A stretch of 64,000 nucleotides of DNA, from the NCBI GenBank assembly GCA_029785825.1, contig JAFLYY010000001.1, positions 1,581,374-1,645,373 on the forward strand, in the 5' to 3' direction. Under the pieces are notes generated by a model, which worked only from the letters and a program-made list of their open reading frames with translations, had not been told where the DNA came from and ran no database searches. A program made the position numbers and the translations under genes. The first letter of the stretch is position 1; every line of letters starts with the position of its first letter. This document shows positions 5,622-8,085 of this stretch, piece by piece. The stretch is from Nitrososphaerota archaeon. GTDB taxonomy: Archaea; Thermoproteota; Nitrososphaeria; Nitrososphaerales; Gagatemarchaeaceae.

Positions 5622-5655
5622 TTTTAAATAGTATATCACTTAGAGTGATATACTA
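5622..5655 (+). promoter_or_regulatory. TATA box and perfect 27-bp palindromic operator upstream of Hsp20
   Basis: The TATA-like TTTTAAAT occupies 5622-5629. It is overlapped and followed by a perfect inverted repeat with 12-bp arms, TAGTATATCACT at 5629-5640 and AGTGATATACTA at 5644-5655, separated by TAG. The repeat fills the space between the TATA box and the expected start of transcription, seven bases before the hsp20 ATG. Binding of a dimeric winged-helix repressor there would block the transcription machinery. The regulator encoded just downstream at 6210 is an obvious candidate, but that link is inferred. Confidence 0.75.
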
Positions 5656-5661
5656 GGTGAC

Positions 5662-6171
5662 ATGAACATGGCAGACAAGACATGGAAGGAAAGTCCCCGT
5701 GAAGACGAGGAACAAGAATCGAAGTCGCTGGCGCTGCCCGGTTTCGGGGCCGGCGTGCTATTCGAAGACTTCATGAGACCGTTCGACGAACTCGTGCGGC
5801 CGCTGTTCCCGAGCTCTTTCGGCTCTCTCTGGACTGAGTTCGGAGGGAAAGAGCCTAGCATTGACGTACAAGACAGAGGAGACCACTACGTACTGACAGC
5901 GGAACTCCCTGGCTTCGACCGGAAGGATGTCGAGGTCGAAGTCAGCGACAGGGTGCTCGAGTTGAAAGGCGAGAAGAAGACGGACAAAGAGAGCGAGGAC
6001 GGCACCCAGATACGGAGTTCAAAGTCCTACGTCCAGAGGTCCCTGACCCTCCCTGAGGAGATCGTCTCTCAGAAGGTCACCGGGGCTATGAAGAACGGTG
6101 TCCTCGAGCTCAAGCTCCCCAAGAAGGAGCCGGGGCTCGCTGACCGGTACAGGAAGGTGGACCTGAAGTAG
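5662..6171 (+). CDS. hsp20: Small heat-shock protein of the Hsp20/alpha-crystallin family
   Basis: This ATP-independent chaperone holds unfolding proteins in a refoldable state. The 169-residue protein has a variable N-terminal arm to about residue 70. An alpha-crystallin domain follows, with PSIDVQDRGDHYVLTAELPG, RVLELKGEK and the signature GVLELKLPKK near residue 150. The C-terminal tail DRYRKVDLK lacks an obvious IxI oligomerisation motif. The ATG at 5662 directly follows the palindromic operator; ATG at 5668 is an alternative. The winged-helix regulator follows 38 bases later on the same strand, suggesting a heat- or redox-responsive unit. Confidence 0.95.
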   Translation: MNMADKTWKESPREDEEQESKSLALPGFGAGVLFEDFMRPFDELVRPLFPSSFGSLWTEFGGKEPSIDVQDRGDHYVLTAELPGFDRKDVEVEVSDRVLELKGEKKTDKESEDGTQIRSSKSYVQRSLTLPEEIVSQKVTGAMKNGVLELKLPKKEPGLADRYRKVDLK

Positions 6172-6890: not shown

Positions 6891-6937
6891 CATATCCCTA
6901 AATGCGTCAGTACTGCCCTTGATAGCTGGTGTCTAAC

Positions 6938-7378
6938 ATGCCGTATGATGAAGAAGTGAAGAAGATCAACGAAAAGAAGTTCGAAGAGATGCTTAAGCAG
7001 CAAAAGCCTCAGAAGAGCAGTCAGGAGCCCTCCGGGAAGCCCGTAGAGTTGACAGATGCCAACTTCGTCCGGGTAGTCAAGAGCCACCCGTTGGTGGTGG
7101 TCGACTTCTGGGCACCCTGGTGCGGACCCTGCAGGATGGTGTCTCCGGTGCTCGAAGAACTCGCCTCGGAGATGGTCGGCCTAGCGACCTTCGGGAAGCT
7201 CAATGTTGACGATAACCCGGCTATCTCGCAGCAGTTCGAGATTCAGGGAATCCCCACCATCATGGTCTTCAAGGACGGAGAGCCGGTGGATGGGCTGGTG
7301 GGAGCGGCGCCGAAGCAAATGATCGAGGCCAAGATAAGGCCATATGTATCTGGAGCCAAAGGCTCACCTTACCAGTAG
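6938..7378 (+). CDS. Thioredoxin
   Basis: The 146-residue protein is a thioredoxin with the classical active site WCGPC at residues 61-65. It also has the cis-proline segment QGIPTIMVF and a conserved buried Asp in VVDFWAPW. The first 35 residues form a charged helical extension (EEVKKINEKKFEEMLKQQK) that is not part of the fold and is common in archaeal thioredoxins. It would reduce protein disulfides and could supply electrons to the MsrB encoded at 192-581. The ATG at 6938 was preferred to an in-frame GTG at 6929. No thioredoxin reductase is seen in the window. Confidence 0.94.
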   Translation: MPYDEEVKKINEKKFEEMLKQQKPQKSSQEPSGKPVELTDANFVRVVKSHPLVVVDFWAPWCGPCRMVSPVLEELASEMVGLATFGKLNVDDNPAISQQFEIQGIPTIMVFKDGEPVDGLVGAAPKQMIEAKIRPYVSGAKGSPYQ

Positions 7379-7380
7379 AA

Positions 7381-8085
7381 TCAGGGACTTTCCTTTGACG
7401 TGACGTAGGCGAGGCGGGCGTATGGCCTCACGGCCTGAAGTATCTTCAGTTCTGCCTTCCGCAGATGCTCCTCATAGGTGGACCGCTTCATCCCCTGTTT
7501 GAGGGCGATTTCGTCTATGGTAGCGCCTTTGGGCATCTCGTAGTATCCCATCTGGAGGGCCGAAATGAACGCAGACAGTTGCTTCTTGGTCAGAGTACCG
7601 AGAAACTCATCCACGGGGACCGTGATGGCCCCTCTCGCCGACTCCCTGGCGACCACTGATTTCCGCTCCACTTCCACCTTGGACACCTTCGAAAGGGCGG
7701 CCATCGCCTCGCTCAGCGCGTCGTTGGTGAAGGCCAGCAGGCGACAGTATTCGAACCCGCCATGATAGCTGACCGGCATCACAGAGATGCACCCTGCCCA
7801 CTCTATCTTGGCTACAGTAGAGTTGTCAGTGGCGCACTTGCAGCTGATGACAGCCTCCAAGTTCCTAGGCGAGTACCTGTTGAACCTGATGAGGCGCGCC
7901 CCGAGCCCCTTCAGCATCTCCCTCAGGGCTGAGTCGAGCTTCTCGGCGTCATCAACCTTGGATGCCTGGAACTCCAAGATATCGACCTGGAGATTGCACC
8001 ACCTCTGGAAGGTCACGGATGGGAACATCTTGGAGAGGCCGCAGAACGGGAGGGTGTGATCGAGCCTGAGATCGACGTCGAACAC
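7381..8085 (-). CDS. HTH_10 (Bat-like) family transcriptional regulator
   Basis: The 234-residue protein ends in an HTH_10 domain, the C-terminal DNA-binding module of the haloarchaeal bacterio-opsin activator. The segment LTKKQLSAFISALQMGYYE, then IDEIALKQGMKRSTYEEHLRKAELKIL, forms the helix-turn-helix at about residues 170-225. The N-terminal 150 residues contain a beta-rich sensory-type domain with several cysteines (PFCGL, RWCNLQV, SCKCAT) that could bind a metal or sense redox state; this is speculative. Such regulators are greatly expanded in Nitrososphaerota. It is convergent with the thioredoxin gene, and the two stop codons are separated by only two bases. Confidence 0.85.
   Translation of the reverse strand: MFDVDLRLDHTLPFCGLSKMFPSVTFQRWCNLQVDILEFQASKVDDAEKLDSALREMLKGLGARLIRFNRYSPRNLEAVISCKCATDNSTVAKIEWAGCISVMPVSYHGGFEYCRLLAFTNDALSEAMAALSKVSKVEVERKSVVARESARGAITVPVDEFLGTLTKKQLSAFISALQMGYYEMPKGATIDEIALKQGMKRSTYEEHLRKAELKILQAVRPYARLAYVTSKESP

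Follow-up and report, generated by a model that had tools for sequence, protein, structure and literature searches.

A palindromic candidate operator and an ArsR-type regulator in an hsp20 operon of a Nitrososphaerota archaeon

According to the excerpt of a 2023 paper on which we draw, only certain Euryarchaeota have been shown to possess a transcription factor dedicated to heat shock, and neither the Phr nor the HSR1 regulon includes the thermosome (PMC10653856). Both factors are assigned to arCOG01684 (PMC5852551). In the cited excerpts, Phr, whose regulon in Pyrococcus furiosus has been described (PMC10746257), represses hsp20 from a site lying over its start (PMC9133787) and is associated with the elements TTTA, TGGTAA and AAAA (PMC9133787, PMC6316755). 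HSR1 of Archaeoglobus fulgidus shares an operon with hsp20 and has the site CTAAC-N5-GTTAG, from which repression below heat-shock temperature has been proposed (PMC9133787), and SurR is described with the site GTTn3AACn5GTT and a CxxC redox switch (PMC12162507). The cited portion of a paper listing Thaumarchaeota chaperones mentions no regulator (PMC4084955), and the library we searched listed no paper on such a heat-shock regulator in this archaeal group.

Here we present a locus within a 64,000-nucleotide stretch of DNA (hereafter the window) in which hsp20 is followed on the same strand, after 38 bp, by the gene for an ArsR-type protein, regulator A (Table 1). A preliminary description of this DNA had placed a perfect 12+3+12 palindrome between the TATA box and hsp20, and our analysis confirmed it. 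We consider it probable that this palindrome is the operator of regulator A, which would repress hsp20 and its own gene and be released under proteotoxic stress.

Table 1 The hsp20–regulator operon and its promoter, with positions counted within the window
Feature	Position	Strand	Basis
TATA-like box of the hsp20 promoter, TTTTAAAT	5622-5629	+	read from sequence
Perfect inverted repeat, TAGTATATCACT-TAG-AGTGATATACTA, 12+3+12	5629-5655	.	read from sequence, with shuffles
GGTGA, probable ribosome binding site	5656-5660	+	read from sequence
hsp20, small heat-shock protein, 169 aa counted from 5662	5662-6171	+	Pfam HSP20, 71.2 bits (cut-off 20.8)
Possible partial terminator: hairpin and T6 spanning the hsp20 stop codon	6165-6192	+	sequence and relatives
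Regulator A, ArsR-type winged helix	6210-6872	+	Pfam HTH_5 and homology; palindrome binding predicted

In the 64-kb window, the palindrome is the sole perfect inverted repeat with arms longer than 9 bp (loop of up to 8). Dinucleotide shuffling of the full 64 kb produced arms of at least 12 in 3 of 60 runs, and shuffling of the 91-bp intergenic stretch in 0 of 20,000. The palindrome alone is thus about a 1-in-20 event per 64 kb, and the case for it rests on its position and conservation. The conserved unit of the putative operator is better taken as the 23-mer GTATATCAC-N5-GTGATATAC (5631-5653), which in relatives has AC-N5-GT at its centre and TATA in its outer portions; when 11 hsp20 sites were aligned and inspected by eye, each was adjoined by a TATA-like A/T run. 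With the spacing typical between an archaeal TATA box and the transcription start, hsp20 transcription would begin near 5650, so that the site would span roughly -20 to +3. Ribosome sites resembling GGTGA or GGAGG also precede hsp20 in the aligned relatives. The GGTGA suits the second ATG, at 5668, rather than that at 5662, and the second ATG is probably the true hsp20 start.

A 1.5-kb stretch holds 3 sites that combine a hairpin with a T-run, where 1.4 would be expected, which makes the hairpin at the hsp20 stop codon weak by itself. A run of at least six T occurs in the hsp20–regulator gap in 7 of 9 aligned rows, with G029 weak and G036 having none (G numbers denote genomes). A partial terminator here may keep hsp20 output above that of the regulator; the T-run could also uncouple hsp20 from the regulator, which would count against a one-operon repressor model. 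Downstream of regulator A lies a thioredoxin gene (6929-7378), adjoined on the opposite strand by the gene for an HTH_10 regulator whose N-terminal domain is of the HVO_A0563 type (7381-8085).

Regulator A had been described as an ArsR-like winged-helix protein, and its Pfam HTH_5 score of 41.6 bits (cut-off 22) bears this out. The best curated model is Phr (NF053602; 63.3 bits, far under its cut-off of 320); the curated SurR model scores 46 bits (cut-off 250) and the ArsR/SmtB model NF033788 42.5 bits, under its cut-off of 55. Residues 3-183 align to 2p4w, an entry whose title gives only the arsR family and which we take to be Phr of P. furiosus, and residues 11-218 align to structure entries of PF0095 (SurR). 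Of the G022 and G024 regulators, the G022 protein was scored, and its best model is SurR. Homology thus points to regulator A being distantly related to Phr and SurR. There is no cysteine among its 220 residues, so it has neither a CxxC redox switch nor a thiol metal site. A single-sequence structure model is poor (pLDDT 55) and contains two long helices at 126-173 and 177-219; the dimerising coiled coil of the preliminary description is not directly visible in it.

We compared 61 genomes: that of the window (G000), 36 others of the same family and 24 others of the same order. Ten carry an A-type regulator (G000, G010, G012, G022, G024, G029, G031, G035 and G036, with G044 included in the count). 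Conservation of the palindrome before hsp20 in relatives had been set as one half of the test of the preliminary description, and it was found: the operator lies upstream of hsp20 with at most one mismatch in all ten of these genomes, and 0 of the 51 genomes lacking an A-type regulator have an hsp20-linked match within 2 mismatches (coordinates compared by eye in both cases). The association has a Fisher value of 1.1e-11, which ignores kinship and incomplete genomes; the ten genomes are related, and independent events are fewer than ten. All eight zero-mismatch places are upstream of hsp20, one of them (G012:C29, at a contig end) judged by first codons; this second G012 site is counted as a place and not as a genome. 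The eight one-mismatch places comprise three before hsp20, two before a thermosome gene and three without such a gene, the last assigned by inspection at G034:C11 and by coordinates only in G053 and G043. The AC-N5-GT letters are kept even in G029, G012 and G031, whose arms pair at only 7 of 9 positions.

At up to 2 mismatches, the degenerate 23-mer occurs at 33 places in the 37 genomes of the family against 9 for its reversed control (summed by hand). In the 24 genomes outside the family it does not exceed the control (40 against 50 places), so weak matches there carry no meaning alone. Within the genome of the window the degenerate 23-mer has three further places, all with 3 mismatches, against 2 for the reversed control, and the search for other copies of the palindrome that had been suggested at the outset returned none for the 21-bp core at up to 3 mismatches. 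That the genome holds a single such site counts against the repressor model. The plasmid sequences searched contained no match.

In two genomes of the set, G009 and G030, the operator and hsp20 have been deleted along with roughly three quarters of regulator A, with the flanking genes retained; the two junctions are alike and may represent a single event. A C-terminal remnant of regulator A lies between the carboxypeptidase and thioredoxin genes in both (L043 in G009, L042 in G030). The operon order in G022 and G024 is operator-hsp20-dnaK-regulator, with dnaK called by Pfam HSP70 (711 bits) in G022 and by sequence reading only in G024.

The genome of the window also encodes a paralogue of the regulator, paralogue B (G000:C1:298425-299072), which is 41% identical to regulator A and has a similar recognition helix. 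In the tree, from which the partial second regulator copy of G031 is omitted, A (98/94) and B (98/95) form sister clades within the family of the window, and the single hsp20-linked copy of G044, which has a TAC-type site, falls outside both. The residue before a conserved Q (glycine in A, serine in B) was considered as the determinant of operator specificity and rejected, because G044 and G051 share GQQLVT and their sites differ. Directly upstream of the regulator gene in G042, G047, G056 and G060 is a site with one AAC arm and one TAC arm, and the gene divergent from the regulator in G042 and G047 is a thermosome gene. G051 has a perfect GTGTACAAC-N5-GTTGTGTAC upstream of its regulator gene, and several B promoters retain a GTATACAAC-like half-site. 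The regulator homologue of G046 (L085) is located between two thermosome genes, with CTAAC-like, HSR1-like half-sites upstream.

A sister motif, TATAMACC-N5-GTTGTATAC, is found with at most one mismatch at 18 distinct places in the 61 genomes and at 0 in the reversed control. Twelve of these places belong to thermosome genes (for some, the assignment rests on coordinates or first codons), three to grpE, one to a second hsp20, and two have no assigned gene (G034:C7, at a contig end, and G052:C2). The pattern was built on thermosome promoters, so the thermosome matches are partly circular; the grpE and hsp20 matches are not. At sister sites, dnaK follows grpE in G034 (by Pfam) and G036 (by sequence). 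Across 30 loci, GTTGTATA is present near the thermosome start codon at 17 of 17 within the family and 0 of 13 outside it, with three of the 17 matches just past the first in-frame ATG, probably not the true start. Both thermosome promoters of the window's genome (L205 and L206) retain only this right arm. In the family thermosome promoters (L096-L109 in relatives), GTTGTATA(C) forms the right arm of AAC/ACC-N5-GTT, and the left arm is fused with the TATA box. Two further chaperonin-like genes of G022 are without GTTGTATA, which is thus not universal. The genome of the window holds the full AAC-N5-GTT palindrome at only one weak place, with 3 mismatches, and its grpE promoter and two other hsp20 promoters have no operator site. 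At L226, L227 and L100, an AAC-N5-GTT palindrome separates grpE(-dnaK) from a divergently oriented gene that, judged from its sequence only, resembles RIO-type kinases.

From the presence of the sister motif in B-only genomes, paralogue B would be the protein that binds it. We propose tentatively, rating it close to even and slightly on the doubtful side, that a Phr/HSR1-like ancestor duplicated at the base of the family and that the copies split the chaperones between them. Regulator A would have taken TAC/CAC-N5-GTA/GTG at hsp20 (and dnaK in some genomes), and B would have taken AAC-N5-GTT, with one arm fused with the TATA box, at the thermosome (and grpE-dnaK in some). Of the compact switch envisaged in the preliminary description, the comparison supports that the candidate operator tracks the regulator of its own operon; the switch would not stand alone, but would be part of a broader set of chaperone genes under related control.

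In the proposed mechanism, a dimer of regulator A would sit on GTATATCAC-N5-GTGATATAC, between the TATA box and the hsp20 start codon. There it would cover the transcription start and exclude RNA polymerase, so that hsp20 and the regulator gene are repressed; heat or another proteotoxic stress would cause the repressor to release the operator, and the reset would be automatic because the induced operon yields more repressor. Support for this model comes from the conservation of the site, its tie to regulator A, its joint loss with hsp20 and most of the regulator, the G022 and G024 operons, the sites upstream of homologous regulator genes, the chaperone-linked sites, the homology to Phr and SurR and the analogy with Phr. 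Against it, besides the single site in the genome and the T-run, stand the site-free grpE and two other hsp20 promoters of the window's genome, the low Phr score, the SurR best model of the G022 regulator and the kinship of the ten genomes. The first reading was partly supported, and it appears largely right in kind, pairing an operator with a repressor from the same operon.

Paralogue B could instead be the main binder of both the hsp20 site and the thermosome promoters, leaving the adjacent gene to do something else. Its likeness to A, recognition helix included, would allow this, and B-only genomes retain the sister motif at thermosome genes; however, a TAC/CAC-type site precedes hsp20 only in genomes with A or the G044 copy, and G009 and G030 lost the hsp20 operator together with A although both still have B, which makes this reading improbable. 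It is less far-fetched, if still unlikely, that regulator and operator work as proposed in response to a signal other than heat, such as redox, metal or another stress. The thioredoxin gene that follows regulator A would suit such a signal, as would its relative SurR, which senses sulfur redox in the excerpt cited (PMC12162507), but a cysteine-free protein offers no CxxC and no thiol metal site, and the linked genes throughout are chaperones.

We give very little credence to a third reading, in which the palindrome works in the transcript, folding into a hairpin that serves as an RNA thermometer in the hsp20 leader. The repeat does form a perfect hairpin immediately 5' of the ribosome site. 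Yet the adjoining TATA box would put the transcription start near the 3' edge of the palindrome and leave most of it untranscribed, relatives conserve the AC-N5-GT letters even where pairing of the arms is imperfect, and sites of the same build occur in divergent promoters and fused with TATA boxes. The repressor model remains our preferred reading.

Eight of the 61 genomes, spread over four other families of the order, were found to encode archaeal AmoA, against 0 of the 37 genomes of the window's family; on this basis the order is probably Nitrososphaerales, and the host is probably a non-ammonia-oxidising member of it. Since the order includes AmoA-bearing ammonia oxidisers, the locus leads to the prediction that a duplicated chaperone regulon exists beyond Euryarchaeota. 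Together with its relatives it offers a testable regulator–operator pair in an order that counts ammonia oxidisers among its members, and it connects the promoters of hsp20, dnaK, grpE and the thermosome with a single class of operator. Confirmation would show that a single regulator family can control the main archaeal chaperones. Under the duplication proposal, a heat-shock regulon that controls the chaperonin would exist outside Euryarchaeota, and the locus would provide a natural example of, and a test system for, operator specificity diverging after regulator duplication.

Of the known systems, SurR (PF0095, Thermococcales) resembles regulator A in length and homology, and its AAC-N5-GTT is shared with the sister motif; in contrast to the CxxC and the sulfur and hydrogen genes of SurR, regulator A has no cysteine and is linked to chaperone genes. 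The likeness to Phr of P. furiosus lies in the aligned region, in the best curated model and in repression of hsp20 from a start-overlapping site in Phr, whereas the Phr elements are unlike the operator letters here and the score falls well short of the Phr cut-off. The thermosome-linked sites differ from the Phr and HSR1 regulons, which are without the thermosome in the excerpt cited (PMC10653856). HSR1 is likened through its published site and operon description and not through its protein sequence: in both cases an ArsR-type regulator and hsp20 share one operon preceded by an AC-N5-GT site. The preliminary description had called the operator distinct in sequence from that of Phr; it is not wholly distinct from known ones, because it shares the AC-N5-GT core of the HSR1 site in the excerpted description (PMC9133787), and the regulator would itself be a distant Phr/SurR relative. 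The regulator gene comes first in the HSR1 operon and last here, the third base and flanks of the HSR1 site differ from the GTATATC/CTATAC-like arms found here, and compared with HSR1 there are here a second paralogue and sites at thermosome and grpE-dnaK promoters.
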